A DNA stretch of 64,000 bases from contig JAVLRN010000008.1 of the NCBI GenBank assembly GCA_032821775.1, positions 2,542,001 to 2,606,000 of the forward strand, in the 5' to 3' direction. Positions 1,942-57,021 of the stretch are shown here, piece by piece. The stretch comes from Sanguinoderma infundibulare. Taxonomy: Eukaryota; Basidiomycota; Agaricomycetes; Polyporales; Polyporaceae. The translations under genes were made by a program, and so were the position numbers. The notes under the pieces were generated by a model. It did no database searches and had not been told where the DNA came from. It saw only the letters and a list, made by a program, of their open reading frames with translations. How positions within the stretch are numbered: the stretch's first letter is position 1; each line of letters starts with the position of its first letter.

Positions 1942-2606
1942 TTATTCTAATGTCTTCTCCGTTCCTTGATCTACATCCGTGGAGTCCCAGACCTCTTTCG
2001 CAGAAGCGTTGGATCCTTCCGGAGCCCGGTACTCTACCGGGCGCGTCTGGGGCACCTTCGTGGTCCATAGAGCCGCCCTCGCGGCCAGGAAGAGCGCATC
2101 GACGACGTTCCCACAGTCGGCGAGGACAACCGCGTCAAGGTTGAGCAGCCACGCTTGTCGTCCAGGCATGATTGTGAGATTCGACGGGTGAAGAGAGGGG
2201 TGCGCGAATGCTTGGTGAAGGAAGACGGTGAGGTCATGCTGGAGCTCATCCAACGCGTTGGAGGAGAGATGGGGGTATGCAGACGGTGAAATATCTTTCG
2301 AATATTGAATCCTCAGAGTGTATAGATAGCAGGGGATCACGTACCATGTAACTGAACAAATCACTCTGCCTCCATCCACTCCGTCAGCAGATCCGACATC
2401 CTCGACCTCGAGCTTGACGGCAGCCAAGATCTCCGTGCATCCTCCGCCCTCGCGAACCGCCTTCCCGATGTTGAGCCTCGCGCTGCCATTGGCCAGAGGT
2501 GCTACGTCGGTCTCGAGCAAGACAGCCGGAAGTCGAGTAAAGACCGCCCATCAGCAGATGTCTGGATATATGCGCGCTCTGACTTGGAGACTAGAGTTGC
2601 TGCCAT
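1942..2606 (-). pseudogene. RRP42: RRP42 (exosome RNase PH subunit) relic, copy 1
   Basis: RRP42 is a ring subunit of the RNA exosome. Minus-strand reading from 2606 gives MAATLVSKSERAYIQTS and DGRSLLDFR, then after a one-base frame change LETDVAPLANGSARLNIG and LAAVKLEVEDV. After an intron-like stretch come AYPHLSSNALDELQHD, MPGRQAWLLNLD and VLADCGNVVDALFLAARAAL. These are the RNase PH-fold blocks of the RRP42/EXOSC7 family. The frame break after DFR also occurs in the copy at 56.9 kb, so it predates the duplication. The sequence runs out after VEYRAPEG, well short of the family's usual 270-300 residues. It is therefore a truncated relic rather than a working gene. It is convergent with the GH5 gene, and the same GH5-RRP42 order recurs at 55-57 kb. 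Confidence 0.75.
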
Positions 2607-2963
2607 AGTGCCGACGAAAGGGAGATGCGAAATAGTCAAAGCTGCAGCTCAAGGAACCAGGATGGAAAAGCGTCAATGCGTCGTATATGCTCGTTTATAT
2701 CCGTATTTGGTGCGTCGATAAACAGTTTAGACGCCTGCCCATCTCTCAGTCTCCTGTCGACGTCACGTCGACCATGACGTGCATGACACCCTCCTGGGTC
2801 TTAGCTTGCGTTGTGGATACCTTTGGCGCCATGATAACTTTGAGATTGTCTGATTGGTGTGCAAGTATGCCGTGTTCGCAGTCTGCAATTTTTGCTGCCT
2901 TGCTGCTACGCCCGCCGCCTCCGCCTCGCTCTGAGTCTACTGTCTTATTGTGCCGCTCTCTCC
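2607..2963. other. Intergenic; right edge of duplicated block
   Basis: No gene is supported here. About the first 65 bases match the sequence that follows the RRP42 relic at 56,945-57,010. The match stops near 2672, where copy 2 passes directly into the TM-gene block instead. That point is a recombination edge of the duplicated segment. I could not find a terminal inverted repeat for the Tnp2 element that begins downstream. Confidence 0.4.
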
Positions 2964-5900
2964 ATGTCCCCCAAACGCGCGCCACGACCATGCAGTTGTC
3001 GTCAGTTTTGCAAAGGTGTCGAGCATCTGCTTCCGTATTCCACTTGGTACGACCACAGAGCAGCAAGAGCGAGCGACCTGCAGGATGCTCTCGGACGCCA
3101 TCTGCAAAGCGAAGGCGCGGGCCCTTCATCAGCACAATCGCATACTCAGGCAGACAACTCAGCCAGCCAACGCGCACCCAAACGTCAACGCATGGATCAA
3201 GGGCATGAGGATGAGGACCCTTTGCCGGAGCCCCTTGGGGTACGCTTTATAATACTAACTCTATGTTTTATATCCTACATTTGTATTTTCAGGAACATGA
3301 CTTCCCCCGTGGTACACCACCCGAAGAGCCGCCAGGAGTAGACAGGATGCGCGACTCGCGCGAGCCGTCCGAGATGCCCGAGGGCAGCCCATTGCCATTT
3401 GAGGATGAACCGGAGATACCGTGCGATGAACAAGAGGCTGGAGATGGTTCACTGCGCAACATGCAGGTATGTACAGACAGTGTGTGAACTCGATGTGAAC
3501 CTGACAGTAATGCCATGCAGCAACCACGAGAACCTGAACCCGATCCCGAATATGGTGCGCACGACGAGACAGGCCCATTGCCTGTACCGCGGCTTCAAGA
3601 TCTGAAGAACGCACTCGCATTCATGGAGGGCCTGAAGGATGCTTCTCTGGACCACTCACGACTTGATGAGGAAACCTTGGCTCGGCTACGCTGCGATCCC
3701 TCTGAATTCGACGAGTCGCTTCCCGATCTGTCAGAAAACCGTGTCCTCCGCCTCGCCTTACGACTGTTCCTTGCAAGTGGACATTCGGAAGACAACTACC
3801 GTGACACTGCTTTTGCCAGCACTGAGTTCAACGAGGAGCTCGAGCTTCCGACATTCGAGGGAATACAGCGCGAGGTTCAGAGGCTGAGCGGTGTCGTTCC
3901 CATCGTCACCGACATGTGCCCAAACAGCTGTGTTGCTTACACAGGACCCTACGAACACCTAACCAAATGCCCAGTTCCTGACTGCCACCAGGATCGATAT
4001 GAGACTCGGGGACGCAAGCAGGTCGCACGTCGCACTTTTCAGACACATCCGCTTGGACCACAGCTGCAGGCCCTATACCGCCCACATCCCTGTGCAAGGC
4101 GTATGCGCTATCGCGAGCAGGTTACACAGCACTTGGTGGACCTGTTGGATGCGAACGAGATGATTGAGGTGGCGGAGGATGTGTTCTATGCCAAAGAATA
4201 TCTCAATCTTGTCGAAAATGGCACAATACGGGAGGACGACCTACTTCTCATGTTCTCAATCGACGGTGCGCAGCTCTATGAATCCAAGCAGTCTGACTGC
4301 TGGGTGTACATCTGGATTCTCTTCGACCTCGCTCCTGACCAGCGTTACAAGAAACGCTACGTTCTGCCTGGCGCATTCATTCCCGGACCTCATAAACCCA
4401 AAAACCTCGACTCTTTTCTCTTTCCTGGCCTCTACCATGTCGCAGCACTTCAAAATGAGGGACTCAAGATCTGGGATGCTGACAGGCAGCGTGGCTTCGT
4501 GACATGCCCAGTCATCCTCTTCGCAACAGCTGATACACCTGCTATGGCATTCATCAATGGCCTTGTCGGACACACCGGACGACATGGCTGTCGACTCTTC
4601 TGTCCTATACGTGGATGGCGCAAGCCTGGTGGAGGGGGGCATTACTATCCAGCAATGCTCAAACCAGCCAATGAAGACTACAATGTGGAGGGAAGTATGC
4701 ATGACGATATCTTGCTACGTGACCCTCCGCGTGGTGAGACCAACTCTGAGCGGTACGATCGAGACCTTCGTCGTGTTCTAGCCTCTCCAAATCAGTGCCA
4801 ATACGAGATCCGTCGACTCGAAACCGGCATCACAAAGCCATCCATCTTCATGGGCCTCCCCGTGAACTGTGGGTTTCCCAACACCTTTCCTGCTGACATC
4901 ATGCATTTGGTGGCCCTGAACATGACAGAACTCGTGATCAGCCTGCTGCGTGGTAGCTTCCGCCGTGATGCATCTGATGCCTTCAGAAACTGGGACTGGG
5001 CTTGCCTCTCCGACAAGGAGGTGTGGGAGGAGCATGGCCGGCTCGTTGGTGCAGCCTCTCTCTATCTTCCTGGTTCATTTGACCGTCCACTTTGAAACCC
5101 TGCTGAGAAGATCTCCAGCGGATACAAAGCTTGGGAGTTCATGTATTATGTATACGGCTTTCTCGCAGGGTTTCTATAGTCGATCCAGTGCACCGACTAC
5201 TACAGCCACTTCTGCAAGCTCGTTTCCGGCATACACTTTGCCTCGTCACCACTCCCATAAAGCACCACAAAGAGGCACACAACCTCCTCGTGGAGTACGT
5301 GGAAGAGTTCGAAGAGGTCTACTATTTCCGGCGCGTCGACCGCCTCCACTTCTGCCACCAGAGTGTCCATGCACTCTCTCACATGATCGACGAAAATATT
5401 TGTGTAGGCCCAGGATGGCTCCATTCGCAGTGGGCTCTCAAGAATGCCATCGGCAACCTAACTGCAGAAATCAGGCTTCATTCAAAGCCTTATGCAAACC
5501 TTTCCGAACGTGGTCTTCGACGTGCACAGGTCAATGCCCTTTATGCTATGTTCCCTGAACTCGAGAAGCAGGAGAAGCTCCCCACTGGTGCAGTCGAACT
5601 GGGTGACAACTTCATTCTCCTCTATCCGAGAATGTCCAAATCCATTGCTCTTTCCACCGACAATCGTGCTGCCATCCTTGCACACCTCCAAACTTTCCAT
5701 GACATCCATGTTCCACTTGACTGGACCCCGAGTGCCTGCAAATGGGGCCGTTTGCATTTACCAAATGGACAAATCGCTCGCACAGCATGGAAGGAGTGTG
5801 ATGGGGAAAGGAGGGGTCGACCAGTCCATCGTGCACGCATGGTAAAGGTACGAGTGCTAGACTGCGAGTGGGTAGGATGTAACTTACCTTTTGTCAGCTG

Positions 5901-15974: not shown

Positions 15975-15978
15975 TCGC
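15975..15978. repeat. Gypsy target-site duplication, left
   Basis: TCGC, repeated at 27636-27639. Removing the element and one copy restores the hAT reading frame LQRYLA-APLEDV. A four-base duplication is also supported by the solo LTR at 41219-42166. Confidence 0.8.
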
Positions 15979-16967
15979 TGATACACTATCCCAGGGCCTG
16001 TGTACAGTCAGGACGACCGAGGGCTGAGGGAGGCGAGGTCGGAGCGACGTCGCCAGTGCGGAGGGCGAGTACAGTCTCGAGTTCCCTTTGGTCGCGATCG
16101 TAACCAGTGCCGAGGAGAAGAGAGGGGAAAGAGCGTGTGGTGTCGAAGGTCGAAAGTCACGGTAAAAGTCGCGCGACGAGTCGCTGTCGCTGTCGCAAAT
16201 CGGTCGATCGGTGGTCGCTGTCGCAAGTCGCAATCGCAGTCGCTAGCTACACCCGACAGAGGATGATGTCGAGTCGCACTTGCTCGTCGGAGAAATGAGA
16301 GGTAAAGGGTGGGGGTCCAAGATGTCTGCCCAAACGGCAACGAGTGGGGTTAAGTACATCGGTAACCGGTAGCTACACGCGACGCCCATAGCCTAGCCTG
16401 CCTCGCGGTGGCGAGCGATCACAAAACCAGCGTCGGAAACCCTCCGGAACTCCAGCGATCGGCGCGCGACCGCGACCGGATTGGGCGACCACCGTCGGCT
16501 TGTCTTGGCGGATCACGATCGCTGTCGCGCAGTCGCGCGACTCGTCGGTTTCCGGTTGTCGCGACCCGTACCTGCTGCATAAGTAACCTTTCGTGAGGGA
16601 CGATCTGCGACCAGTCGCGCGACGCGACGGAGAGAGCAACTGTGTGACTTAACTTGTGGCCCGCCGCCGTGCGACCGTAGGGACGGTCGGGGACAGGCCG
16701 AGTCGCGACACCGATCGTGACCGAATACTTTTGGTACCCTTCGACGGCCTAGTCTTGGTGCGGCGGCATCGCACGTGCCCGGCTTCTTCGGCTCTCGTCG
16801 GTACCGGACCCGGTTAACAGGCCGGGCCGCCACCACGTGTGTCCGAATTGCGCAGCCCAGAGACGCCAACGAGCCGGCAGCCGCCGAGATGTCGGTCGAG
16901 TCACCTCGGTCGTCCGAATGGAGCAATTGCGTCGGGCTCCGCGGTCGGAAGCGTCGGGTGCGCATCA
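15979..16967 (-). repeat. Gypsy 3' LTR
   Basis: 989 bp. On the plus strand it runs from TGATACACTATCCCAGG to GGGTGCGCATCA; on the element's own strand it begins TGATGCGCACCC and ends GTGTATCA. Same length and offset (10,668) as the 5' LTR, with no indels. It carries six of the seven CpG transitions that separate the two LTRs. Confidence 0.95.
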
Positions 16968-16980
16968 CCTCCCCCTCACT
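16968..16980 (-). other. Polypurine tract next to the 3' LTR
   Basis: On the element strand AGTGAGGGGGAGG lies directly before the LTR start TGATGC, the expected place for plus-strand DNA priming. The tract and 23 flanking bases recur inside pol at 21570-21605. Confidence 0.85.
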
Positions 16981-17318
16981 GGGATCTCGACCGTCCTCGG
17001 TCGCCGCGAGGAAGCTGCGTGGTACTGGTGCCGTCGCCGCACGATCTTCTCTTCTCGGCCACTTGACAGACGGCGATCCTCGCTAGACGCGCTTCTCGCG
17101 CTTCTCGACGAAAACGGTAACCCTTCGACCCGTCGCGCGACAAAAGACCGCCCCGAACTGGTGATCCCGCGACTCCAGGCGTGCGATGGGGGTAGGCCCA
17201 GGATGCTGGCGCCGCCATCGCGCGTCACATAAGAGCCGTCGCCTGGTGGGTCTTCGTCCGTGCTCCCCTCCAACCTCGCCCCTCGGTTCTTCTTCCTCTC
17301 CTCGTCTCACCATCTCCC

Positions 17319-19557
17319 ATGTCCGACCCCAAAGGCAAGTCCCGCGCCACCGGCGACGACACCTCCCAGGTCGCGCGCGACGGCGCCAAAGCCAACCTCG
17401 ACATCCTCCTCGACTACTTGGACGGGAACCCCCCAGAGACCGACGACGACCGCGAGGCGGGACTCCAAAACGCGTCGGACAACCTGGTATGTCGTCTGTC
17501 GCTGTGTCCCTCCATGTTCAGGCTGACTTCGTTTTCTCGTCACAGGACGCTTGGCTCGGTGCAGGAGCGGACGCCGACGCGGTCGCTGCCGTCGCCGACC
17601 GCGTTGTTTTGTCGTTCGCGGACTGGTTCAGCTCGGTCGCACACGCGTGGCCGTCCTGGCTCAGCCCCATCCTCCGGGAGGGATACCTGCGCCTGGCCGC
17701 CCGTCAGATCGCCGATGCCCAACGCGTCGCCCGGAAGGCCGACGTGATGGCCAAGGCGCGCGAGCGCGCCGCCAAAAAGGCCGCCCGCCAGGCCGCTCTT
17801 CCTCCCATGCCCGACGTCCTCGCCGGCGTCGCCGCCCCTCCTCCTCCTCCGTCCTCTGCTGCCAAGTCGCAGCACCCTTCCGCCGCCGTCACCGTCACCA
17901 CGTCCTCCCAGCACTCCTCCGCTGCCGTTGCCGCGACTCTTGCCCCGGTGTCGTCCGCGTCGCGCTCGGGCGCTGTCGCTGCCGACGCCGTCGCCGGCCA
18001 GGCTCCCGAGTCGCCGTCCGCCGAGTCGCCGCCGCCCCGCGTTCGCCCTCGCGTTCGCCGCAAGCGCGGCCTGGTGGATCGCAGCTCCGTGGAGTCGGCC
18101 GAAGTCGCCGGGGAGAAGGCCGCGCCGCCCAAGAAGACGCGCCGCGATCCAGAGGTCGCTGGTGCCGTCGTCGCACCGCCCGCGCTGGCGCGCCCCGCCC
18201 CCATCGAGCTCGGTTCCTCCGAAGACGAACCCCGTCGGCCCGAGATCCCCAAAGTCGAGCTGGGGAAGCGGAAGTCGGCAGCCGACACTCAACCGCGGCC
18301 CGCGTCGCCTCCTCGCCCAGACCCCGCGCTGTCGGCGGTAAGTGACTTGTCGCCGCTCTTTCCCCCTTTGTCGCTGCTGATCGCTGTCGCAGTGCGACCG
18401 CTGCTCCGGCTACGCCCGGATCGAGTGCGTCCTCCGGCGTGGGGAGGTTCGGTGCGAAAAATGTCGCAAGGACAAGAAGGGCTGCGAGTACGACTCGCAG
18501 CGGTACAGCGAGTGGTTTGACGACTCCAAGCTCAAGCGCGGTAAGTCGCCCAGCCCCTCCTATCGCCGCGACCGCTGACCTTGTTCCAGGTCGCATGGCC
18601 GTCCGCCCGTCGCTCCACCAAGTCGAGCGGGGCAACGCAAAGGGGTGGGAGCTCGCCGCTGATGGCTCCATCGTCGCGGTCGCTCCTCCGGACATCGAGG
18701 GCCCGGCCGTTGCCGACCCTCCCCCCAAGGCTCCAAAGCCCCGCAAGGCCAAGAAGCCGGCGCCCGCTGTCGCCGGCCCTCCTCCTGCCGCGGGTCCTTC
18801 CACGCGTCGCGCCGCGGCGGTCCCTGGGCCTGTTGCTGGTGCTGCGACCCGTCGCGCCGGCGACGCTCTCCCTCCCGTCATCAGCCCCGAGACGCGTCGC
18901 ATCCTCGACGCTCGTGTGCCTGTCGCGGTCCCTTCCTCGCGTGTCGCCCACGCTCCTCCCCCCGCCGCTGGTCCTTCATCTCGCCCTGCTGCGCCGATCC
19001 CCGCCCATCCTCCTCGGCCGGCCTACGCCACGGGCTTCCGCATCCCCACGCCGACTATGCGCCTCCGTCGCCAACTCGCCGGGGAGGGCTTCCCTCTCCT
19101 CGCGTCCTCTGCCAACCGGCACGTCGCTGGCCTCGGCGGCGCGACCGCTGGACTGGGCGCCGACGACCTCGCCGGTGCTGGTCTGTCGGAGGACCGGCAG
19201 ACGTACATCCGTGCCCTCCGAGCGGAGAACGCCTTCGTCGCGGGTCGCATTGAGGTCCTGCTGGAGCTCCAGCAGTACCTGCATGAGCTAGAGCTCATCG
19301 CGACTGGGAAGGAGTGGGGCGCCGACGACTACGAGGCCGACGACTACGACGAGCGCGAGCGCGAGCCCACTAGTCGGGGGGGCGATGACGACGACGACGA
19401 TGACGCGTCATACGTCCCGTCGGAGGACGAGCGGGAGCCGGTCGTCCAGGCGCCTGTCGCGCAGGGGCCCGTCGCAGAGGCGCCAGTCGCAGAGGAGCCT
19501 GTCGCTGAGCCGTCGGAAGGCCAGGAGGACGCGTTGAATGGCGAAGGGGACGAGTAG
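17319..19557 (+). CDS. Antisense accessory gene of the Gypsy element, zinc-cluster-like
   Basis: Four exons (17319-17486, 17546-18337, 18393-18540, 18590-19557) join in frame by GTATGT/GTAAGT donors and CAG/AG acceptors to give 691 residues with no stop. It lies between pol and the 3' LTR but on the opposite strand, convergent with pol. Seen: MSDPKGKSRATGDD start, a helical segment with WLGAGADADAVAAVADRV, and a long Ala/Pro/Ser-rich basic linker. A compact cysteine motif in exons 2-3 (CDRCSGYARIEC, then RCEKCRKDKKGC) has spacing C-x2-C-x7-C-x8-C-x2-C-x6-C, close to fungal Zn2Cys6 clusters. A Leu-rich helix (IEVLLELQQYLHELEL) and an acidic C-terminal tail follow. A nucleic-acid-binding role is inference. 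It could also be a captured host gene, but I do not recognise one. Confidence 0.75.
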
Positions 19558-20091
19558 GTGGAGTCCAGTCGCGCCGTGGTCGCACCACGTCGGACACTGA
19601 TTTTCTTCCCAGTTTTCTTTCTTGGACTTGCATGTGTATGTAGGCGCGCTCTCTTCCCGTCTCGTCGCTAGTTTTCTTGCTGTATGTCGTATGTCGCCGT
19701 CGCTATCTCGGTCGCAGTATCGCAGTCGCTATCGCAGTGTCGCAGTCGTTATCGCAGTGTCGCAATCGCTGGTCGCAGTCGTCTTCGCTATCTTGTCGCC
19801 TGTAGCTTATATCCGTCAATAATAATATCTCTCCTTTGGTTCTAGACGCGTGAATGACAAAAGTATTTCCCCGAGGGAAAGGCTCAGCGTGGAATCCTTC
19901 ATCGCCAGAAAACCCTCGCCATCGCGACAAAGCCACGATGGAAAATCGGTCGCAAAGGTGCGTCCGAGGTCGCAAAGAATATAAACGAAAGACTATGAAG
20001 TGGCGATTGGGGGGGGTATGCGAAAGATGAAAAGAGCGCAATATGGAAGATATGGAAGCGGATCACAAATGAAAACCGATACTCAGCTCGA

Positions 20092-23000
20092 CTAGTCCGT
20101 GTCGCCCACCCCGTCGCTGCCGTTCAGCGATATCGCATCGCCAGTCGGACGATCGTCCTCGACACCCGCGTCGTCGGCGTTCTTCATGTCCTCGAACCGC
20201 TTTTGCGAGATGTCGAGGAGCTCGTCGGCGATGCCGATTGATTGTCGCGCGAGGTAGGGGAGGAGTCGGAAGGCCGCGACTGGTCGGTGAAAGACCGTCC
20301 CATCGAGTTCGCAGATGACGTACGCTCCCCCGCGGTTGCGGGTGAGGACGACAAGCGGCCCGAGGTATCGTGGTCGCATCTTGCGGTTGAGGGCCTTCTC
20401 GATCTGCGTGTGTCGGAGGAGGACAAGGTCGCCGCGTTTGAAGTCGAAGTCGCGGATGGTTGTCGCGTGGTCGCGCTCGAACTTGTACGCTGCTCGAAGT
20501 CGCGCTCGGTAGACGTCGGACTGGAGGTCGGCGATCTGGTCTTGCCGCTTCTGGAGCGCTGTCGCGTGCTGCGTGATGAGATCGGTCGTCGACAGGATCG
20601 AATCGGGCGGTGGGAGCAGATAGGTTGCTTCTCCGATGTCGAATGGCAGGATCGGATGACAACCTGTAGCCGCGAAGTACGGTGAGCAGCCCATGCGACG
20701 TCGCGTAGTTACTCTTTCTGCCCAGAAGGCGAAATGAGCGACTTGCGACCACTTGGTCTCGTCGCCGTCGGCGGCCTTGAACAGAACCTGTCGCACGTCG
20801 AAGTGGGGTCGCTCGACGATGCCGTTCGCCCGCGAGTTGTAGCCGCTGATTCGGATATGTCGGAGGTGATACTTGCGCGCGAGGTAGCCAGCCGCTTTGA
20901 CGAAAGCCGCGCCGTTGTCGGTGACGATCTCTGCGAGGCCACCCCAGCGACAGATGACGTCTTGGAACAGCCAGTCACCGAGGGTCTTCTCGGTCTCGAC
21001 GCGGAGCATGCGCCACTCCGGGTAGTGCGAGATCGCGCAGCGCGCCTGGACGATGTACTTGAAGCCGCCGGAGGCGGGCATGTGCATGGTGTCGATGTGG
21101 ACTCGCGCGAACAGTGGTGCGGGTGTCGCGACCGTCGGCGGAATGAGGACCTGTCGCGTCTGTCTCGTCTGGCAGAGATGGCAAGTGCGAACATACCAAG
21201 TGACGTCCTCCCGAAGGGACGGCCACCAGAATCGCTCCGCGATGAACTGCAACGTCGCATAATTGCCGCGATGACCTATGTCGTCGTGTGCCTGTCGGAG
21301 GATCGCGAGTCGCTGGCCGAGGCCGACTACGAGCTTGTGCGCGCCGTGCGAGTCCTTTCGCCACAGTCGGTCGCCGTCGACGAAGTGCTGCTGGCAGTAC
21401 TTGATAAACTGCGGGTACGCCTTGTCGGAGATGTCGCTCGGTTGTCGGAGGTCGCGGAGCCACCTCTTGACCTTGTCGAGTCGCTCGTTCGCTCGCCGAG
21501 TGAAGTCGGAAGTCGGAATGTCGCTCGACGTGGTCGCAGTGTCGCTTGTCGGTTCCTGGTCGGTCGGTCCCTCCCCCTCACTGAGATCTCGACCGTCCCC
21601 GGTCGGAGACGCGATCGTGAAAAGTTGCAGGGGAGAGGCGCGTTGTCGCGGTCGCGTCGGCAGCATCTGGTGCAGGAAGCCGTGGACTTTGTCGATCCAG
21701 TCCTCGAAGCCGTCGTCGTCGTCGCGCGGCTCGTCGCCCGGTTGTGATGGTCGCCGCGACAACCCGTCGGGCCCGTGCGACGTTCCAGGGACGTGCACTA
21801 GAGTGAAGTGGAACGTTAGTATCGCGACGATCCAACGGTTAATGCTAGCGCTCGGAGAAATGTCAGGGTTCTGGAGCATGCCCTGAATGTATCGCGCGTC
21901 GACCTCGACGACGAGGTTTCGAACACCGATCAAGTAGACCTTGAGGTTCCGCAGGGCGCGATAGAGGCCGTAGATCTCGAGCTTCGGTTGCGAGAATCGC
22001 GCCTCCCTGTCGTTGAGCGTTATTGATCCGAAGCGACTGTAGTACCGCTTGCGCGGGTCGTCGATGTCGCACTGGCAGAGGTGGAAGCCGACCGCGATGT
22101 AGGAGGTATCGACGGCGAGGATGACGGCCGCGCCCGACTCGTAGTCGATCGCGCGGAGTGCCGGCGACTCGATGACCGCCTTCTTGAGGTCCTCCTGCGC
22201 ATGGAGTTGCTCGTCGCCGAACTCGAAGGGGACGTCTTTCCGCGTGAGCTTCACGAGTGGCCAGGCGCGCTTCGCGAAGTTTCGAATGAAAAGTCGCAGG
22301 ACGCCGACCGTGCCTATGAACGCGCGGATCTCCGATATGTTCCCGCACGGTCCCCAGTTGACGATGAGGGCGATGCGCGACTGTTCGGGTTGTCACCCGA
22401 TCGGAGTGCATCGCTGGCCGATGACGATGTTCTCGATGTCGATGGGCATCGACTTCGGCCCGGAGTAGGTGCCGCCGGCGTGGCTCATGCGTGTGACGAT
22501 GCGATTCTGGTTGTCGAAGTGCTCCTTGACGAAGCGACGAACGCCGGGGTTGCGCGGGATGGTCTCGTACTTGCCGTCGCGGTCGCGATAGTCGGATTTC
22601 GGTCCCTTGTCGGGGACATCGTCGATATACGGTACTGTCCACTCCGGGATCTCGGGCTGCAAGATGTAAGTGACGTCGTCGTGGAAGATAGGTACCGAGT
22701 TACACCACCCCATCGGGAGGGTGCAGTGTCGCAACGCGCCGAACGGAGTCTGGAAGGTCGTGAGGTCGCGCGACGACTTTGCGATCAGTCGCTCGTCGTA
22801 GCCGACGTAGAGGTCGTACATCGAGCCGCACGGTCGCCCGCCGAACTGCTCGGCGAGATAGTCGGGCGTCGGAGTTACGCCCGAGTGCGCGATCGTGACC
22901 TTGTTGAGTGGCTCGAGGCTGTGGACGATGCGCGGCTTCCCGTCCTTTTTCGCGACGCAGAACCAGCGACCGCGATACGACGAATTCGACGGCTCGTACA

Positions 23001-23571
23001 CGCCGGCGGCGATCTTGCGCTTGATGATGTCGCAGACCTCCTTGTAGAGACCCGGCGGGATTGGGATGTTCTTCTGGACCCACGGCGTGTGCGGTACGAC
23101 CGGAAAATCGACCGGTGGGAAGAACTCGGGTTTGAAGCAGCCGCGCTCCTCGTCGGTCCATGCGAACGCCTCGTTGTGGACGCACATGAAGTAGTGGAGG
23201 AGCTTGCGCTCTTCGGGCCAGAGAAAGTCGGGTCGCAGCTTCTTGTCGAGGGCCTCCATGCGTTCGCGGGTGTAGCGACCGGTCGGGACGAAGTCAGGGG
23301 GATGATCGGGGAGGATCGGCATGTTCGCGAGCGGGTCGCCGGTGATGTTGCGCACGACGCGAAACTGTTCGGGGCACGAGCCTAGGACAGGTCGCACCTT
23401 GCGCGCGACCGGTTTGTACTTCTTCTTGGTGACGAGGCCTTTCGTAACGGGGTCGCGCGTAGTGAGGAAAACGTTCGCGGGGGTATCTTGCGATCGCGGC
23501 GCGAAGTAGCCGCGACCGTTTTTGGTCGGAAACGAGAATACGAAAGAAGGTGAGGAAGAACAGGGGCGCAT
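20092..23571 (-). pseudogene. pol: Gypsy Pol: reverse transcriptase, RNase H, integrase
   Basis: One continuous minus-strand frame from 23571 to 20092 apart from a TGA at 22395-22393. RT part: KPRIVHSLEPLNK, LTTFQTPFGALRHCTLPMGW and the catalytic YIDDVP. After the TGA: NWGPCGNISEIRAFIGTV, RNase H with AVDTSYIAVGFHL and EIYGLYRALRNLK. Then the H2C2 finger (HDDIGHRGNYA with CHLCQTRQ) and the integrase core with HIDTMHM, IVTDNGAAF and GIVERPHFDVRQ (the D, D, E triad). It ends with a GPLVVLTRNRGGAYVICELDG block and an acidic tail. The TGA replaces a position where arginine is usual in related elements (PIG-stop-QPEQSR), so CGA to TGA is likely. No chromodomain was recognised. Confidence 0.9.
21570..21605 (-). 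other. Internal copy of the polypurine tract
   Basis: 36 bases match the 3' PPT and its flank (16968-17003) with two mismatches, sharing the 13-base tract AGTGAGGGGGAGG exactly. It lies in pol between the RNase H and integrase coding regions, within codons for DLSEGEG. The position resembles the central PPT of lentiviruses. Confidence 0.6.
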
Positions 23572-23890
23572 AAAGGAGAGAGAGAGGGCGATGTCGAGAG
23601 AGGGAGACGGAGGAGGAACTGGAGACGCGAGGAGAGAGAAAGAGTCCGAGGTCGCAGTGGTCGGCGGTGTCGCCGGTGTCGCCGCGCTTGTCGCACGACA
23701 TTTTTCGCTAGTAGTTGTGAGATTAGTTGAGAAATAGACGGCCGCGCGATCGTGCAGTTGATCGCAGGCCGATAAATAGAGAGCTGGGATAGGAATAGAG
23801 TCGTCAGCGATGCGGGTATATGCAGAGATAATGGGGCCCCCTGGTGTGTCGTCGATGACGAGGGCGTAGTCGCCGTCGGGCGACCCGTCC
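23572..23890 (-). other. Gag-Pol junction region
   Basis: Between the Gag-protease stop (23893-23891) and the RT frame an open reading stretch exists in a third frame (starting EDGSPDGDYALVIDD). It shows no known domain. RT expression would need a frameshift, a splice or internal initiation. Whether this is natural or decay cannot be decided from one copy. Confidence 0.4.
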
Positions 23891-26134
23891 TCAAACGGAT
23901 TCGGCGCGCTTGCTGTCGATGCGAAACCGAAAGGTCGGCTGTCCTCGCGGTCGCGTCGGGATGGTCACGACTTGTCGCGTGTTCGGGCATTCGAGCGTGA
24001 TCGTCTGGTCTTCATTGTTGAAGTTCTTGATGACGCTCCGCGTCAGGACGTCGAAGGGGCGACCGAGGAGCAAGTCGTAGGGCGCGTTGCGAATGACATG
24101 AACCTGTAGGTAAAGCGTAATACCGCCGACGAGGAAGGGCACATTGCGAACAATACCTAGCGACGGGTCGACCGCGCCGTTCGCCGACTGCATATACAGC
24201 TGCACCGTCGGGTCGTAGGAGAGCGCCGCGTGGTGGCAGAGGCCCTCGGAGATCGAGACGATTTGCGCACCGCCATCCAAGGTTCCCTCGACGTCGATCT
24301 TACCATCGAGACAACCGACGATCGAGCGAAGCGCATACGACTCCTTTGCGACCACGAGCGGCTGCGGCTCTTGGCCGGGGCCGAGTCGCGAGAGGTAGAC
24401 GTCGTACGGGTCGGGGACTACCAACGCACCCGGCTCCAGGGGTTCGCCGCGACAGGACCGCGCAGTCGCGAGTTCGTCGTCGCTGGTCGCATCGGCGAAG
24501 GTGACTGTGCGCGGCTCGGTCGGTACGCGCTTTGGGGTGATTGCCTCGCGGAACTTGGCGCGCACGTCGGGAGCGATGCAGAGGAGCTCCTCGACAGAGA
24601 GCGTGATCGCCGGTGTCTTCATCGCGCGCGAGTAGACCTCGTCGATCAACTTGGGCTGGTAGACCGGGACCGTGTTGCGATACGCTGGATCGCGCTCTTT
24701 ACCGCTCGCTGGTCGCGGTGTTGCGCCGACATTGGTCGTCCGTGGCGGCGCATAAGTCGCGTCGCGGGCTCCCGCGAACGGGTGCTCTGGCGCCGCTCCT
24801 TGTCGCGTGGCCGGGGTCGGTGGTCGCAGGATGGTGACCGGCCGTGCTGGCGCGGCCGCCACGGTTGCCCTGGTCGCGGCTGGGGCCGACGCCCTCATTC
24901 CGGAACCGCTGGCGGTCGCTACCGTGGGGCCCCCGTCGGGAACCTCCTCGACTCTTGCTGCCGGTCGCGGTCGCCGGGGAACGGTCGTGATCTCAACTCC
25001 ATCGAACTTCTCTCTTGCTTGTCGGAGGGCGAAGATCTCATGCTCGAGTTGGGCGATGCGGTCGCTGGTCGCGTCAGGCGTCGGGGCCGCCGGTGCGACC
25101 TGGAAGAGGAGCTGGCCTACAGGCGCCGTCGCGTTGCGCCGGTGCCACTCGTAGGCGCGGTCGCGCATAGTCAGGCCCGGTAGGTTGCGCGGTACGAATT
25201 GCCCATTAGGCAAGACAACCTTCCCATCGTTGTTCCGCGCAATGCGACCCGCGTTGATGTCCTCGTCGACGAACCGGCAGGTGCGAACCTGGCAGCCCGC
25301 ATCACCGCAGTAGTGGCAGAAGCCCATCGGCGGCGGTCGCCCGTAATCGGCACGCTGTGGTGGTCCCGCTGGTCCTGCCCCGGCACCATTGTCGCGTATT
25401 GCCTGCGCCATCATTCGGAAGAAAGGCTCGACATCTTCCAGCTTGATACCTGTCGCTGTCGGAGTCGCCGTCGCCGTCGCAACCGCTGGTGCTACCGGCG
25501 TCGCCGTCGCTGTCGTCGACGTCCCGTGGAGCACAAATCGTGCCGCCTCGAGGACGTCTCGGAGGGCGTAGGGGTCGTCGGGGTGGTGGTCGACGAACTT
25601 GATCTGAAGTCGCTGAGCCACCTGATCCCATAGGGGCGGTCGAATGCCACGCGCGAAGAGTCGCGACTGTTCCAGTACCGACAATCGCTGGTGCTGTATC
25701 AAATAGGTAGTCATAACGAGGAAGTCCCGATGAAAACTGGAGAGTTCACCGAGCGTCGTGATCGGTGTCGCCGCGCGACCTGCGACCAGATTATCCACGT
25801 CGGCGACCGAGTACTTGCGAGCCTCATCCGCGCCGGGGTATAGCTCGGCCACGCTCGTCTTCCACTGTTCGAACGTGTACGCGTCCTCGTACGAGGGGAG
25901 CGACTCCCACAAATCGGCGACCTCGACCTCGAGATAACGAATCGCCCATCGTTTGCGTGGTCGGCCAGCGGCGACCTGGCACCTGTCGAAGAGCGCGTCG
26001 AGGTCTTGCCAAAAGCCACGCAAGGTTCTTGGTCGCTCGGGGTCGAATACCGGCGCAGTCGCGTGGTTGCGCGCGGGCATCGCGGGTGGCGGGTGCGCTG
26101 CTGGCTGCGGCGCTTGAAGATCGGGGGGATCCAT
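23891..26134 (-). CDS. gag: Gypsy Gag-protease polyprotein
   Basis: 747 residues from ATG at 26134. The N-terminal half is a Gag capsid-like helical region (RWAIRYLEVEVADLWESLP, FEQWKTSVAELYPGADEA, LIQHQRLSVLEQSRLFARGI). A zinc knuckle-like motif follows (CHYCGDAGCQVRTC), where the usual His is Cys. After a disordered linker comes a retropepsin-like domain with LDGGAQIVSIS in place of the common DSGS form, and LLLGRPFDVL near its end. The frame is also open upstream to about 26570 but without an ATG. No internal stop. Confidence 0.85.
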   Translation of the reverse strand: MDPPDLQAPQPAAHPPPAMPARNHATAPVFDPERPRTLRGFWQDLDALFDRCQVAAGRPRKRWAIRYLEVEVADLWESLPSYEDAYTFEQWKTSVAELYPGADEARKYSVADVDNLVAGRAATPITTLGELSSFHRDFLVMTTYLIQHQRLSVLEQSRLFARGIRPPLWDQVAQRLQIKFVDHHPDDPYALRDVLEAARFVLHGTSTTATATPVAPAVATATATPTATGIKLEDVEPFFRMMAQAIRDNGAGAGPAGPPQRADYGRPPPMGFCHYCGDAGCQVRTCRFVDEDINAGRIARNNDGKVVLPNGQFVPRNLPGLTMRDRAYEWHRRNATAPVGQLLFQVAPAAPTPDATSDRIAQLEHEIFALRQAREKFDGVEITTVPRRPRPAARVEEVPDGGPTVATASGSGMRASAPAATRATVAAAPARPVTILRPPTPATRQGAAPEHPFAGARDATYAPPRTTNVGATPRPASGKERDPAYRNTVPVYQPKLIDEVYSRAMKTPAITLSVEELLCIAPDVRAKFREAITPKRVPTEPRTVTFADATSDDELATARSCRGEPLEPGALVVPDPYDVYLSRLGPGQEPQPLVVAKESYALRSIVGCLDGKIDVEGTLDGGAQIVSISEGLCHHAALSYDPTVQLYMQSANGAVDPSLGIVRNVPFLVGGITLYLQVHVIRNAPYDLLLGRPFDVLTRSVIKNFNNEDQTITLECPNTRQVVTIPTRPRGQPTFRFRIDSKRAESV

Positions 26135-26626
26135 CGCGAGCGACGAGAGTTCGCTGAGTGGTGTGAACGGGGAAACTTGTAGTGACGCTGTCGAGGGTGT
26201 CGCAGCGATATCCGGCGACGGCGGGAGGGGAACGTCTGTCCAGTAATCGGGCGAGGGAGGGAGTGGAACGTCTTCCCAGGGTTCTGGCGACGGTGGCAGG
26301 GGAAATTCGCCGGGAATCGCGCTCGGCGTCGCGCGTCTCGCTCTAGACCTAACCGTCGTGGAAGATGTCGCGGACGAAGAGTCGGAAGAAGAGGGTCTGT
26401 TATCGAGTGCGTCGATACCGCGATCGAGGGCGCGAGAGAGGGAATAGAGTATGCGACTGTATCGGGCCTCGTCGCCGAGCTGAAGTCCAAGGTCGGTGAC
26501 TCTATGCGCGCGAGCGACAAGTAGCTCGTGTGCGAGCGACGAACGCGAAGGAGTGGAAGGTGTCAGCGTGGCACTGTATGAGAGTTACGGGATCGCACCA
26601 AAGGCGGAGGCGAGATCTATACTCCC

Positions 26627-26643
26627 CCTCGCGGTGGGCTCCA
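26627..26643 (-). other. Candidate primer-binding site
   Basis: On the element strand, TGGAGCCCACCGCGAGG starts three bases after the 5' LTR end. It begins with TGG, complementary to a tRNA CCA end. I cannot name the tRNA from sequence alone. Confidence 0.6.
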
Positions 26644-26646
26644 AAA

Positions 26647-27635
26647 TGATACACTATCCCAGGGCCTGTGTACAGTCAGGACGACCGAGGGCTGAGGGAG
26701 GCGAGGTCGGAGCGACGTCGCCGGTGCGGAGGGCGAGTACGGTCTCGAGTTCCCTTTGGTCGCGATCGTAACCAGTGCCGAGGAGAAGAGAGGGGAAAGA
26801 GCGTGTGGTGTCGAAGGTCGAAAGTCGCGGTAAAAGTCGCGCGACGAGTCGCTGTCGCTGTCGCAAATCGGTCGATCGGTGGTCGCTGTCGCAAGTCGCA
26901 ATCGCAGTCGCTAGCTACACCCGACAGAGGACGATGTCGAGTCGCACTTGCTCGTCGGAGAAATGAGAGGTAAAGGGTGGGGGTCCAAGATGTCTGCCCA
27001 AACGGCAACGAGTGGGGTTAAGTACATCGGTAACCGGTAGCTACACGCGACGCCCATAGCCTAGCCTGCCTCGCGGTGGCGAGCGATCACAAAACCAGCG
27101 TCGGAAACCCTCCGGAACTCCAGCGATCGGCGCGCGACCGCGACCGGATTGGGCGACCACCGTCGGCTTGTCTTGGCGGATCACGATCGCTGTCGCGCAG
27201 TCGCGCGACTCGTCGGTTTCCGGTTGTCGCGACCCGTACCTGCTGCATAAGTAACCTTTCGTGAGGGACGATCTGCGACCAGTCGCGCGACGCGACGGAG
27301 AGAGCAACTGTGTGACTTAACTTGTGGCCCGCCGCCGTGCGACCGTAGGGACGGTCGGGGACAGGCCGAGTCGCGACACCGATCGTGACCGAATACTTTT
27401 GGTACCCTTCGACGGCCTAGTCTTGGTGCGGCGGCATCGCACGTGCCCGGCTTCTTCGGCTCTTGTCGGTACCGGACCCGGTTAACAGGCCGGGCCGCCA
27501 CCACGTGTGTCCGAATCGCGCAGCCCAGAGACGCCAACGAGCCGGCAGCCGCCGAGACGTCGGTCGAGTCACCTCGGTCGTCCGAATGGAGCAATTGCGT
27601 CGGGCTCCGCGGTCGGAAGCGTCGGGTGCGCATCA
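26647..27635 (-). repeat. Gypsy 5' LTR
   Basis: 989 bp, same boundaries as the 3' LTR. It should hold the element promoter. It carries the CG form at six of the seven variable sites. Confidence 0.95.
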
Positions 27636-27639
27636 TCGC
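27636..27639. repeat. Gypsy target-site duplication, right
   Basis: TCGC, matching 15975-15978; the hAT coding sequence continues directly at 27640. Confidence 0.8.
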
Positions 27640-28225
27640 AGCCCCACTTGAAGACGTTTCCGATGCACTTGTCTGGTGGACGGAGCGTCACTCTCTCTAC
27701 CCATGCCTGTCGCGCATGGCCCTCGACTATCTTACGATTCCTGGTTTGTAACGTTTCTCTGATACCTCTCGAGAGTCGAACGTGACTAATGTTTCCCTGC
27801 ATTCCTTTCAGCCACATCTGTTGATGTTGAATGTGTTTTCAGCCGCGGCCGGCTGCTCCTGAGCCACGTTTGGAACTGCTTCAATGCCCAGACCACCCGG
27901 GCGGTGTTGTGCGTTGGGGCGTGGACATCAGCGGGCCTCGTCGTCGCCAACGACGCACACAAAGTTGCCAGGCTGCCGGACGTCGAGGATGTGCAGGGCT
28001 CGGACTACGAGATGGACGAGGGCTGGGACGCGATTGAAGTAGCGGCGGTCGATGGGTAATGTATAACATGTTCTTGTGTACACTTCCTGAACAAGCTCGA
28101 GCTGAAGCGCGAGCTGAGCTATGCATCCATTGCAGTGAAAACAGTACATACATGCATTGTCTACTCCCATGAAACCTCCATGCAATCTCGAGAGTACCGC
28201 AACTTCATGCAAACCCGCGCCCGAA

Positions 28226-40548: not shown

Positions 40549-43500
40549 ATGTCTTCAGAACCGCCATCCCCTGTCCAATCCCGTCTACAGCTTCCTTCAT
40601 ACCCATCTCAAGCTAATGACAATTCACGCTCTCGTCTGCATTCCCGAGACTCTCTGTCCGACTCTCTGGCCTCTTCTCATTATGACTATGCTCATTCGGG
40701 CGTGCAAATCTCATATCCCTCTTCATGGAACTCAAACTTGGACTTTTCGAGCCGTCCCTTGCATCTGCATGAGACGGCTGCTGCCATTGCTCCTGGCGAC
40801 CACCATTCTTATCATCATCGCGAGCACCTAGCAAGCTATGGAGGGCCTCCGCCAATGTCCTACCAACGAATGGTAAGTCCCTTTAACACTTGTAGTGCAC
40901 TCATGCTCAGCACGACCTAGAATTCTCCAGTTTCTGCACCACCATATCCGCATCCCCATGCCTCGCAATCATCCAAGCCTCGACCCTCGGAGATGGAGCT
41001 TTATGTTTGCATTGACCTGTTGGAAAAGGAAATGGCTAAGCTTCGGTAAGATCTCAACATACTTTCCGTGTGCCTTGGCAAAGTCGAATATGCGTGTAGC
41101 ATGGATGTTCTGGAGTTAGGCGTTCATATGGAGCATATTCGGTACGTTGTCATACTATTCATTGTCAATTCATTTTATACACTCAATTGTGCTGTGCTTC
41201 CAGGAAAGACAGTTATGCTGATGCGCACCCGACGCTTTCATTCGCAGAAGTCGGCGCAACTACCCCTTTCAGACAGCGACTGTGACTTCGCACCACGCGA
41301 TGTTGTGGGAGTTCCCGAGTCGCCGACGGCATCGGCGGTCGCGCGACGCACCGACCCTTTGGCACGAGGCAAAGGCCTAGAACATTGGCGATCTCCGTCA
41401 CTGGTGTGAAGCTCCCGATCGGCCCGAACTGGCGACTACAGCGACCTGGCCCGCCCGTTTGCGCCTCGCGTGTGGCAGCGTAGCGGCGGGCCACAAGTTA
41501 AGTCGTTCAGCATCTTTACAGTCGCGTCGCGCGACGGTCTGCGAGTCGTCTCTCACTAGTTGGTCTTGGTGACAGGTATTAGTCACGACCCCCGACTGCG
41601 ATCGCCGACGACCAGCGACATCGCGCGACCATGCGACGACAAGGCGAGCCGACCCCAAGTCGCACGACCTGTCGCGGCCTTGTGACAGTCGCTGATGTTC
41701 CGATGGGTTTCCGACATGGGTTGTCATGGGCGCTCATCGCTGCGAGGCAGGCTAGACTATAGTTGTTGCGCGTAGTTACAGGCTCGATGTACTTAACCCA
41801 GTTGACGGCTGTTTGGGCACACAATCTTGGATCCTCCCACCTTTCACCTCTCATTTCTCCGGCGAGCGACCGCGGCTCGACATCGTCCTCCTCTGGGTAT
41901 AGCTAGCGACTGCGATTGTGACTTGCGACAGTGACAGTGACCCCCGACTGCGACCTTGCGACAGCGACTCGTCGTGCGACTTATACTGCAACTTTCGTCC
42001 TCCAGCTTCGTTCGACGTTTCTCCCCTCTCCCTGGCACTTGTTGCGATCGCGACCAAAGGGAACTCGAGACCGTACTCGCCCTCCACACCGGCGACGTCG
42101 CTCTGACCTCGCCTCCCTCAGCCCTTGGTCGTCCCGACTGTCCACAGGCCCTGGGATAGTGTATCAACGCCAATGCCAGAAATGCTCAATCCTCGTCCTC
42201 TACAGTGGAGCGGCCATTTGAACAGCAAGACCGGTTCAGTATGTCATATCCATGTATCAAGAATCACGTCTAGTTAATAAGTGCACTGCAGCGAAGCTCC
42301 AAACTCTTAATACACAATCCCTCAAGCCTACAAGAGCTCTCATCGCTGGTGAAGAGCGTGGTGAAGTTCATTTCCGCAGTCCGGAGGACTTTCCCAAAGT
42401 ACATTATGCTGTTCATGTTTTATTCCTCTTAACATCCCCAATCGCTGCCCTAGGTCAAATTCTGGATGGAGTCGCAATGGAGCAAACACAAGAAAGGCGA
42501 GGTAGGGTCTACCCGCATTGGCGATCCTCCTCCACAGCGTGGCAAGCACAACTCTTCTGAGGGCATCAATACAAGGGCGCGGTATGTTGAACAGGTAGAT
42601 GGAAGCATTGTCGATGGCTATTTTATAGCCAAAGCTTGTCGCTTTTGTCAAGAATTTATCAACATGTTGCGCAACGCTGGGTACCACGGAATCCACATGC
42701 CGAAGTACTGGGCTGATGTGGAATTATGTGCCCGCGAGGTCTTCAACACCGCGCTATGCACACTATTCCCTGAGTTCCAACTTGATCATGACAGTTTCAA
42801 GGCAACACTCCTGATGGAAAAGGTGTGGTACGACAAGGTGGGGTGTCACTGGGATAATGCATCCACAGCTCCGTCGGTCGACCTCGATGACGCCCATTAT
42901 ACAATTGACGGCTCTGATCCTGGTGACGCGCCAGCAACAATCAATCTGCCATCCGCCGCTGCTCGCCCTGCCAAACGGTCTTTGCCTGACGACGATTGCG
43001 GTGGGGATGTACCTCGCAAAGTGAAGTGGGTACGAAATGACACTCCTCTTGGTACGTAGTATTATTGTGTTCTCTAACATGGTATAACATTTGTTATCCT
43101 GCAGGTCCATCGCGCGAGGAGAAGGGCAAGGGCAAAGAACGTGAGCATCCCAGCTTGCGCAATCGCCTGGTATGTGTCATATGGTCACCACATTCTGGGA
43201 TGTACTTACTGCCATCTCTCCACCGGCAGATCAATAGCAGCGTGTACGTATCCTTTGTAGTGATAAGAGTATGGCTAAATTTTCTCTATATAGGACAAAT
43301 ATTGTTGGTACAAACAGATCTATACCCAAGCGCACCACAGCATCCACACCTGCTTCCGACACCATGCCCGCCACACCCGCTTCCGGGACCATGCCCGCCA
43401 CACCTGCTTCCAGGACCATGCCCACCACACCTGCTTCCGGGACCATGCTCGCCACACCCGCTTCCGAGACCATGCCTGCCACATCCCCTTCTGAGACCAT

Positions 43501-48470: not shown

Positions 48471-50062
48471 GATGAACGGTGATCTCCCTTGCCGTCGGGC
48501 GTTACGGTTTCCATATTCAGGATCGTCACTGCTCTCTTCCTCCTCCAAAGCTCATCCCAACCTACTCTTTGCCGACCGTGCGGAAGGGCTCTGGAAGAAT
48601 ATGCTATCGAGTATTCGCCTTATATCTCCGCCATGGTTGCTGACGACTGTCTATTCAGATCCAGCCGGGATTCTGGGGCTGACACTGGCAGTCAGCCTCT
48701 CCAAAAAACATACTTCAGACCGCCAGTTTCACCCATGTCCAGCACCCGACTCTTCTCAAATCCCTCCACCATCCCCTCCCTTTCACCCGTATCCTCGCCA
48801 TGGCTTCCGTTGTCGCACAGGCCACCCGACCCCTCTCCGGCGTGACTGTCATCGCGCTGGTATTCGTGGTGTTCGTGACCGTCCTCGCCGCTATCACCAC
48901 CTGGGTCCTTTTCGCTCGTCGTCGTCGCCTCTGCCTTCGCGTTCCACCCACCACTCAGGTGGAGGCCCAAGTCCAGGTTGAAACCGAGGTTGAGAAGATC
49001 CAAGACGCTACTCCCGCGCCGTCTTCAAGCTGTCCGGTCCTCCCCTTCCCCGTGACTGCGTCTCCTGTTCGATCGTCGTCGGACTCATGGGTTCAACGGA
49101 TCGTGGGGAAACATCTCGCGAAGTCTCAGCCCCCTGCCAAGAAGGAGACGATGTGGTTCGCCTTCGACTCTAACGAGACTCTCGCTACCCTGGACCACGA
49201 CCCGCTCGAGGACGGTCACTGCGACGTTCCCCCCACTTCCAAGAACGCTGAGGATGGCTCTTCGGAAGCATCGGCCCCCTCTCTCGCCAGTGGGACGGCA
49301 GGCCCGGCTTCCTCCCGCGAGGGCCAGGCGCCTATTCCCTGTCTCGTCAATGCGCCGGCAGTCCACAAGCCAGACGCTTCATTCTCCTCGGACGACTACC
49401 AGATCGACCTCGGTGACATCAAGATCGACACCGAGCGATATGCGGCCCTTATCTACGCCATCTCTGCCTCGTTCTCCGCCTCGACCCTCGGGCTCCCTAC
49501 CAACTCGTCCTCCGAGGACAGCTCCCCTGCCACGAGCGACTGTGACCATGACTCCTTCCACGACAGCGACAGCTCTCATTTCGAGGACGAGGACAACCAC
49601 GAGTGGGATCTCGGGACGGTCACCATCCATGAGAGCGACTCGCTGTGCGAGCCCTCCATCTTCGCGATCTAACTACCGACATCCCACTCGTCCCCCACGA
49701 GTCTACCCGACACCCATCCACTTGTACGTGAATTGCCAACAGCCAACCTCCCTTCTCGGATGGATCCCCTACCCTCATGCGGATATCTTGCAAGACTACG
49801 ACCCGATCGCATACTCATAGCTTGCGGCGACTTCCGGTGTATGCGTTCTGTCACTCATCCCTCAGTACGGCTTGACTCTTTGTATGTCTACGAGACTGGA
49901 GAGCCCCAGATCATATTGAATTGGATCATCTTTCTCTCTTTTCCTCCGTGAGGTTCTCGCCCGAACTGTCGAACCGAAGGCCTGGACGCTTCAGTGCACA
50001 ATCCGACCCTACTTCGAAGCATGTGTGCGTAGTCGTGAAGATGACGGGTCCACACACTAGGT
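48471..50062. repeat. Segmental duplication block TM-1
   Basis: Homologous to 57022-58640. The first 390 bases are only roughly 80% alike with indels. From about 48858 to about 49990 I see no difference, because three overlapping translations agree exactly. After 50,010 divergence rises again. Confidence 0.9.
48800..49672 (+). CDS. One-TM acidic protein, copy 1 (family unknown)
   Basis: 290 residues, single exon. A short N-terminus (MASVVAQATRPLSGVT) is followed by one hydrophobic segment, about residues 17-38 (ALVFVVFVTVLAAITTWVLF). Then comes RRRR, so the N-terminus is probably outside and the long C-terminal part cytoplasmic. That part starts with a Gln/Val/Glu heptad-like stretch (TTQVEAQVQVETEVEK) and continues as a Ser/Asp/Glu-rich low-complexity region. 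It includes a better ordered block DDYQIDLGDIKIDTERYAAL and ALIYAISASFSAS. I do not recognise the family. Identical to copy 2 except two residues at 17-18 (VI against AL). Confidence 0.6.
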   Translation: MASVVAQATRPLSGVTVIALVFVVFVTVLAAITTWVLFARRRRLCLRVPPTTQVEAQVQVETEVEKIQDATPAPSSSCPVLPFPVTASPVRSSSDSWVQRIVGKHLAKSQPPAKKETMWFAFDSNETLATLDHDPLEDGHCDVPPTSKNAEDGSSEASAPSLASGTAGPASSREGQAPIPCLVNAPAVHKPDASFSSDDYQIDLGDIKIDTERYAALIYAISASFSASTLGLPTNSSSEDSSPATSDCDHDSFHDSDSSHFEDEDNHEWDLGTVTIHESDSLCEPSIFAI

Positions 50063-52089: not shown

Positions 52090-52232
52090 TAGATGCAACT
52101 GCATTAACATCACAGTCACATACATGCACTTCGAGGACGGTAAAAACCCCCGCTACCGCGAAGAATCTCGTATCAACTATGGGCCTGCCCTCATGAACAA
52201 CCCAGCCGACGGACAACATGGTGGGCTTGTCC
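52090..52232 (+). pseudogene. GH5 relic, internally deleted
   Basis: Pieces corresponding to the intact gene: a TGCATTAACATCACAGTC...CACTTCGAGGA stretch matches the CIRIAISYRHFEDD codons. It runs directly into CATGAACAACCCAGCCGACG, which matches MNEPADEQHGRLV with the catalytic Glu codon changed to Asn. About 300 bases of coding sequence between them are gone. Confidence 0.65.
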
Positions 52233-52405
52233 CTTGCGTCCGTGCGACTATAATGGAGCGCCTACATGACAGATCCACCCACAGCCGCAGGACGCGTGAA
52301 TAATGGCGAGGCACACACGACTCGGAGCCCACAGCCCTTCTCCTTTGCCTGCCATTATTTTGAGATCTCAGCCTCGGCCTGGGCGTGTGTCTTCTACTGT
52401 GTTCA

Positions 52406-56944: not shown

Positions 56945-57021
56945 TAGTGCCGGCGAAAGGGAGGTGCGAAATAGTCAAAGCTGCAGCTCAAGGAACCAGG
57001 ATGGAAAAGCGTCGTGGACGT

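Follow-up and report, generated by a model that had tools for sequence, protein, structure and literature searches.

Results

A Gypsy-type element with a gene on its opposite strand

The window, a stretch of 64,000 nucleotides of Sanguinoderma infundibulare DNA (G000:C8:2542001-2606000), contains an LTR element that spans 15979-27635, reads on the - strand and is flanked by the target-site duplication TCGC (15975-15978 and 27636-27639). The features expected of a Ty3/Gypsy element are present, namely LTRs, polypurine tract and target-site duplication, with RNase H and then integrase following the reverse transcriptase. In the reading direction of the element its parts are:

26647-27635, - strand: 5' LTR, 989 bp, 7 differences from the other LTR
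23891-26584, - strand: frame for gag and aspartic protease (PF13975, E 1.4e-5, 26 bits, under the cut-off of 28.2)
22393-23964, - strand: reverse transcriptase frame, assigned by order and YIDD motif, with an in-frame stop at its end in the window copy
20092-22392, - strand: RNase H and integrase frame, end of pol (PF17917, PF17919, PF17921)
16968-16980, - strand: polypurine tract AGTGAGGGGGAGG, near-identical in the aligned A, B and two C1 copies
15979-16967, - strand: 3' LTR, 989 bp, with U3 at ~16368-16967 and R-U5 at ~15979-16308, a division that we placed at the divergence step

A Pfam search with the reverse transcriptase piece of the window copy gave no match; we take the YIDD motif in this frame as the reverse transcriptase signature, and some longer relatives have PF00078. 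The in-frame stop separates the reverse transcriptase and RNase H frames in the window copy, and several other copies have an open pol of ~1290 codons. Named pol relatives of the element come from Heterobasidion and Mycena. Among viral contigs, three stretches fitted the search pattern and none of them was related to pol. Within the integrase region, the sequence at 21570-21605 repeats the polypurine tract with its flank (16968-17003) at 94% identity and represents a candidate central polypurine tract. The CpG observed/expected ratio is 1.37 across 15979-27640 vs 0.90-0.91 in the surroundings.

In the space that separates the pol stop (20092, - strand) from the 3' LTR lies a gene with its coding strand on +. 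The first-pass annotation had described a gene of 691 codons with three introns on the strand opposite to gag-pol, and its coordinates, strand and structure were confirmed, with four exons that give 691 codons plus stop:

17228-17237, + strand: candidate TATA-like sequence CATAAGAGCC, 91 nt upstream of the antisense ATG
17319-17486, + strand: exon 1, conserved in copies
17487-17545, + strand: intron 1, GTATGT..CAG
17546-18337, + strand: exon 2, N-terminal part, Pro/Ala-rich linker, basic clusters RVRRKR and KKTRR
18338-18392, + strand: intron 2, GTAAGT..CAG
18393-18540, + strand: exon 3, cysteine cluster at 18393-18485
18541-18589, + strand: intron 3, GTAAGT..CAG
18590-19557, + strand: exon 4, predicted long helix at ~19189-19305, acidic tail, stop

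The introns measure 59, 55 and 49 nt, are all of the GT-AG kind and lie in phases 0, 0 and 1. In the C1 copy L023 an in-frame GTACAT..CAG stretch of 51 nt is found at the site of intron 1. Gene finder models were plausible for L023 and L027; those for most other copies were spurious and were not used. A box of the form CATAA-purine-rich-CC lies at a similar distance upstream in the aligned B and two C1 copies, as it does in A, the type of the window copy. Dense TCGCAGT-like repeats occupy 19700-19800, directly past the antisense stop codon, and GTCGC is frequent across the whole element.

The cysteine cluster of the product

Re-reading of the translation bore out the proposed cysteine spacing C-x2-C-x7-C-x8-C-x2-C-x6-C. 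The canonical Zn2Cys6 spacing is C-x2-C-x6-C-x5-12-C-x2-C-x6-8-C, so that the second gap of 7 departs from the canonical 6, while the other gaps fit. The zinc-cluster identity suggested by the first-pass annotation was not supported by profile searches: the Pfam family Zn_clus (PF00172) was without match at E<=10 in 11/11 copies, a negative result on which it bears that the HMMER filters discard most weak matches. As a positive control, PF00172 gave 32 hits in the same genome, 0 of them at antisense-gene loci. No known family was matched by the cysteine region in profile searches, the best hit among sequences of solved structures being a weak match to a peroxisome protein (E 0.33), and a search for homologs of this region scored 63 candidates with none at E<=0.1. 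The full antisense protein gave no Pfam hit at E<=1; its full-length homolog search, with 7995 candidates scored and none at E<=0.01, was probably swamped by low-complexity words. The protein may still work like a Zn2Cys6 factor although PF00172 does not match it and its second gap deviates. AlphaFold modelled the cysteine region of exon 3 poorly (mean pLDDT 52.8) and gave helix blocks with pLDDT 73-80 in exon 4, within a model of mean 51.6, so that neither model was good enough to search for similar folds; the EVLLEL of exon 4 is invariant across 9 aligned rows.

Occurrence of the gene across the genome

The genome of 48.9 Mb was searched for further copies. Among the 118 reverse transcriptase matches listed, from which locus counts are lower bounds, all 28 loci at >=79% identity carry the antisense gene downstream, two of them beyond inserted DNA. 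At 27/28 a gene hit lies downstream within 18 kb and in the right orientation, including a locus on C9 with split pol where the gene is 15.7 kb away. The 28th locus, on C5, is itself split into two pieces ~16 kb apart on the same strand, with pol residues 1-193 in L029 and residues 178-766 plus a C1-type gene in L049. A close host paralog, which the first-pass annotation had named as an argument against its proposal, did not emerge: no match among the 90 inspected could be clearly identified as a host gene lying outside an element.

The next pol group comprises 13 rows at 59-69% reverse transcriptase identity, of which seven regions were fetched. In this D group, three distinct copies (L034, L035 and a third covered by both L037 and L038, which overlap) have an antisense gene without introns at this position, with the motif C-x2-C-x5-C-x8-C-x2-C-x6-C and a dN/dS between two copies of 0.39, into which CpG decay is mixed. 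L033 (at L033:1004-1840 and 2470-3635) retains solely the C-terminal part of the antisense ORF, preceded by short repeats and another, lysine-rich antisense frame. No cysteine motif was found in L036 and L039 of the same group. When the D-type protein was compared by profile with those of A/B/C, the probability was 0.1%, and we therefore regard D as an analogous gene at the corresponding position. Four loci, L040-L043, were fetched from the group at 47-49% reverse transcriptase identity (17 rows) and are without the motif. From this distribution the antisense gene marks a clade, possibly with a deeper root.

Selection on the antisense gene

All three introns keep GT..CAG in 16/16 A/B-type rows (the window and 15 copies), and their lengths vary by type, from 59/55/49 in A to 58/53/51 in L013. 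The frame is unbroken in 12/16 of these rows, the exceptions being L008, L009, L011 and L019; L012, L017 and L018 were omitted from this set, and their frames were broken in another comparison. Copies that lack the ORF or accumulate stop codons freely had been named beforehand as evidence against the gene, and this outcome did not appear: of the four broken A/B frames, the three checked for it (L008, L009 and L011) belong to CpG-decayed copies. Older copies decay mainly at CpG (131/168 differences in L010, for example), with preferential CpG loss in the four older copies checked, and this suggests methylation of silenced copies.

Comparison between copies, as the first-pass annotation had proposed, revealed purifying selection, with dN/dS ~0.25 between A and B (0.24-0.26 for the window vs five B-type rows). 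L013-L015 stand at dS 0.65-0.68 and dN 0.16-0.17 from the window, and the values for L016 and L019 are larger. Copies of type A show few differences, and dN/dS among them scatters between 0.10 and 0.67. The window and L013 differ at 114/92/240 of 656 codons in positions 1/2/3, and 13/13 exon indels between them have a length divisible by three. All six cysteines were found in 21/21 gene copies examined among L009-L031, 19 by pattern plus L018 and L028, which both have a stop codon between cysteines. In the 11-row alignment, whose C-type rows are 35-38% identical to the window, cysteine invariance holds by construction because the rows were chosen with a cysteine-requiring pattern; the other invariant positions (L14, K23, K29, G30, Y38, W41, F42) are independent evidence. 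Judged by its sequence, the antisense gene is a genuine spliced, protein-coding gene of the element, for which the best evidence is evolutionary.

U3 and the antisense gene vary together on a shared gag-pol backbone

The copies proved to be mosaics, a cassette exchange that went unnoticed in the first reading. Pol DNA is 89-97% identical to the window in 11/12 other elements (82% in L032), and across the same 12 elements the antisense gene region is 47-77% identical. Synonymous divergence from the window follows this pattern, with a pol dS of 0.09-0.12 for B and 0.13-0.31 for C copies (0.088 for A-B and 0.141 for A-C1, measured with L021) and an antisense gene dS of 0.65-0.76 for B (whole gene) and 0.93-1.1 for C (exons 3+4). 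Between the window and the C1 copy L021, identity is 92-97% in pol; below ~19.9 kb the gene stands at 0.42-0.60 and the U3 part at 0.56-0.62. For the gag region, identity is 87-97% in most B and C copies and 78-80% in two. The transition is sharp:

19850-19900, no strand assigned: edge of the exchanged cassette, an identity step common to four C copies

Identity to these four copies falls from 0.92-0.98 at 19900-19999 to 0.38-0.76 at 19500-19849, and the step is shallower with the B copy L013 (0.88-0.94 to 0.43-0.90).

Since L032 looks CpG-decayed and CpG decay cannot inflate transversions, the comparison was redone on transversions alone. The window differs from L044, L045, L021, L020 and L028 by 0.003-0.008 in pol and by 0.11-0.32 in the gene, a 26- to 94-fold difference. 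In pol, L032 is 0.015 from A and B and thus further than the C copies (0.003-0.010); in the gene it is 0.12 from A and 0.03 from B and thus nearer than the C copies (0.28-0.32). Bootstrap intervals of this reversal exclude zero in 8/8 pol and 8/8 gene comparisons. The argument is carried by the distance reversal, not by trees. The pol tree of 13 elements is poorly resolved (1/10 inner branches starred), although it separates L031 and L032 from all other elements at 90/98. This split is rejected by the gene data (p_AU 1.2e-53 and 2.8e-38, which count as one test because the same split was entered from either side), and pol data hardly reject a grouping of A/B with L032 (p_AU 0.049 and 0.064). 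Rooting pol with the distant D outgroup gave a saturated branch and p_AU 0.40 for the placement of L032, and warnings on long branches and letter composition attach to the trees.

Identity matrices of 11 elements correlate at 0.93 between U3 and gene, 0.31 between U3 and pol and 0.26 between gene and pol, while R-U5 correlates with pol at 0.76 and with the gene at 0.67. From these comparisons, the gene and its adjacent U3 appear to be one block exchanged between lineages that share an R-U5/gag/pol backbone.

At a locus on C4 (L050:3124-3125; 2013500-2017700) a truncated A element abuts the B-type LTR of an 11.7-kb stretch. Next to gag this stretch has an A-type LTR (99%), and its opposite end carries a gene and an LTR of B type, with 72% and 88% identity to the window; if it is a single element, as we infer, it is likely a natural chimera.

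Discussion

A putative regulator directed at U3

The best explanation of these data, to which we assign a probability of roughly 0.55, is that the antisense gene encodes a regulator directed at U3. The candidate TATA-like promoter beside the 3' LTR would drive the gene's own transcription, and the introns would persist because the gene is antisense to the genomic RNA and they are hence never spliced from it; introns inside a retrotransposon find a simple explanation in this orientation relative to the reverse-transcribed RNA. The six-cysteine cluster, the basic clusters, the C-terminal helix and the acidic tail point to a nuclear DNA-binding protein, which would act on the U3 of its own family and set whether those LTRs are transcribed. 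In retroviral reverse transcription the U3 of both new LTRs derives from the 3' end of the RNA and R-U5 from the 5' end. Adjacent in the genomic RNA, the gene and the U3 that is copied into both LTRs would thereby remain matched. If two co-packaged RNAs recombined by one template switch in gag-pol, protein and target would move together, and once the blocks had diverged, crossovers would be possible solely where homology remains, in gag-pol. This confinement of crossovers would preserve the block as a unit and account for the boundary that the copies share.

An HBZ-like repressor, serving copy-number control or immunity, and an activator or anti-silencer of the VANC kind may both fit the sequence data; the anti-silencer reading is attractive because old copies show CpG decay. 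Co-variation of U3 and gene may also be plain linkage of two adjacent stretches without co-adaptation. Two candidate specificity determinants were rejected. CGCGCGAC, the sole U3 motif over-represented vs shuffles, is not type-specific, as it exceeds shuffles in A, L021 and L028 (3/6 regions) and not in B (two regions) or L023, and GTCGCGCGAC was found in some copies of each type.

Alternatives to a U3-directed regulator

The main rival is an accessory protein with a post-transcriptional job, such as particle assembly, nuclear import or integration-site choice, for which the cassette would reflect physical linkage alone. We regard it as rather unlikely, but it accounts for several observations: profile searches gave no match to a DNA-binding family, an acidic tail with a predicted helix suits a protein-protein adaptor, and linkage by itself would yield the co-variation with U3. 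The capsid or integrase partners of such a helper would, however, come from gag-pol, which is similar across elements whose antisense proteins are very different. It is improbable that the antisense RNA rather than the protein matters, by interfering with transcription or through small RNAs directed at the sense transcript. The gene does converge on gag-pol, but codon-level selection, in-frame indels and the kept cysteines point to a protein, and the coding sequence of the gene ends ~530 bp short of the pol stop.

The introns would also be in place if a host gene had been captured once and was carried as a passenger without function. This reading is already disfavoured, and we consider it very improbable, since diverged types across the pol clade carry the gene with a dN/dS of ~0.25 between A and B, and the unpaired hits examined adjoin element pieces (L049 and L050, with L018 near a gag fragment). 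Equally hard to credit is a U3-gene block that evolved fast in place and was never exchanged. Transposon regulatory regions can evolve quickly, and the weak pol trees would allow it, but within one and the same pair of elements pol and gene differ 7-8 fold in synonymous divergence, the excess persists in transversions (26-94 fold), and L032 inverts the order of distances between pol and gene.

Comparison with known systems

The arrangement had been called little-described. This needs some restriction, as the position of an antisense ORF is already known from plant Retand (Gypsy) elements, for which antisense ORFs between pol and the 3' LTR are characteristic, and from Grande and RIRE2 (PMC11963269). 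In Retand, 97% of the clusters of recent elements encode an antisense TRP28 domain, for which DNA binding is predicted and a regulatory role was proposed (PMC11963269). Retand thus resembles the element of the window in the location of the ORF, whereas the antisense protein of the window is without TRP28 (PF04195; Pfam, E<=1). Moreover, the main text of that report leaves introns unmentioned, while the gene in the window has three, and a U3-linked cassette exchange like the one seen here is not mentioned in the parts of it considered (PMC11963269). Our literature search, which covered open-licence papers, returned neither a fungal case nor a U3-linked cassette exchange.

HTLV-1 HBZ, a nuclear factor, and the APH proteins of HTLV-2/3/4 derive from spliced antisense transcripts that originate at the 3' proviral end; APH-3 and APH-4 suppress transcription from the 5' LTR (PMC10186651). 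A U3-directed repressor would resemble these proteins in function; the bZIP factor HBZ is expressed from the 3' LTR, whereas the gene in the window has a cysteine cluster and a candidate TATA-like site outside the LTR. An anti-silencer would instead resemble VANC of the VANDALs, which are DNA transposons. In Arabidopsis, VANC is an element-encoded, sequence-specific anti-silencing protein that, across related elements, diversifies in step with its non-coding targets (PMC5735166). Those targets form tandem repeats (PMC5735166), whereas no type-specific U3 motif was found here. The pairwise, retrovirus-like recombination within an Arabidopsis LTR retrotransposon family, which makes chimeric elements in transposition bursts, is the mechanism proposed here, although an accessory regulator cassette is not mentioned in the parts of that paper considered (PMC5668417).

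Self-encoded restriction of an LTR retrotransposon is represented by Ty1 copy number control through p22/p18, with subfamilies that reportedly differ in how they are restricted. Ty1 p22 is a piece of Gag that acts on particles, not on LTRs, unlike the proposed U3 regulator.

A possible specificity module

Antisense accessory genes are on record for LTR elements with no function known for them (PMC11963269). What is new here is a fungal, spliced, cysteine-cluster and cassette-swapped form of such a gene, of which a single genome contains several types; their gag-pol backbones are similar, and each type is linked to a U3 of its own. As far as sequences can tell, the exchange of the block appears as would be expected of a module for self-recognition or self-regulation. 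We tentatively suggest, as a reading that goes beyond that of a U3-directed regulator and is held with less confidence, that an antisense-coded DNA-binding protein and its cognate U3 could constitute a swappable specificity module, of which several old types are maintained on a common, recombining gag-pol backbone. Recognition would take place among elements of one type, leading to self-limitation or joint de-silencing, and not between types, and diversity would be kept by a frequency-dependent advantage. If so, the block would be a retrotransposon counterpart of the immunity regions of lambdoid phages. Since the same machinery comes with different candidate regulator/target pairs, the family offers a ready-made swap test of retrotransposon self-recognition.

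Other features of the window

An inverted fragment at 41483-42169 has ~76% identity to the LTR of the element and is possibly an old solo LTR. A cluster of duplicated stretches occupies 48471-63478, in which 48471-50091 and 57022-58668 are 94.6% identical and others 74-86%; three frames within these stretches gave no Pfam match. At 3488-5095 a frame matches Transposase_21 (tnp2) with E 4.7e-10.
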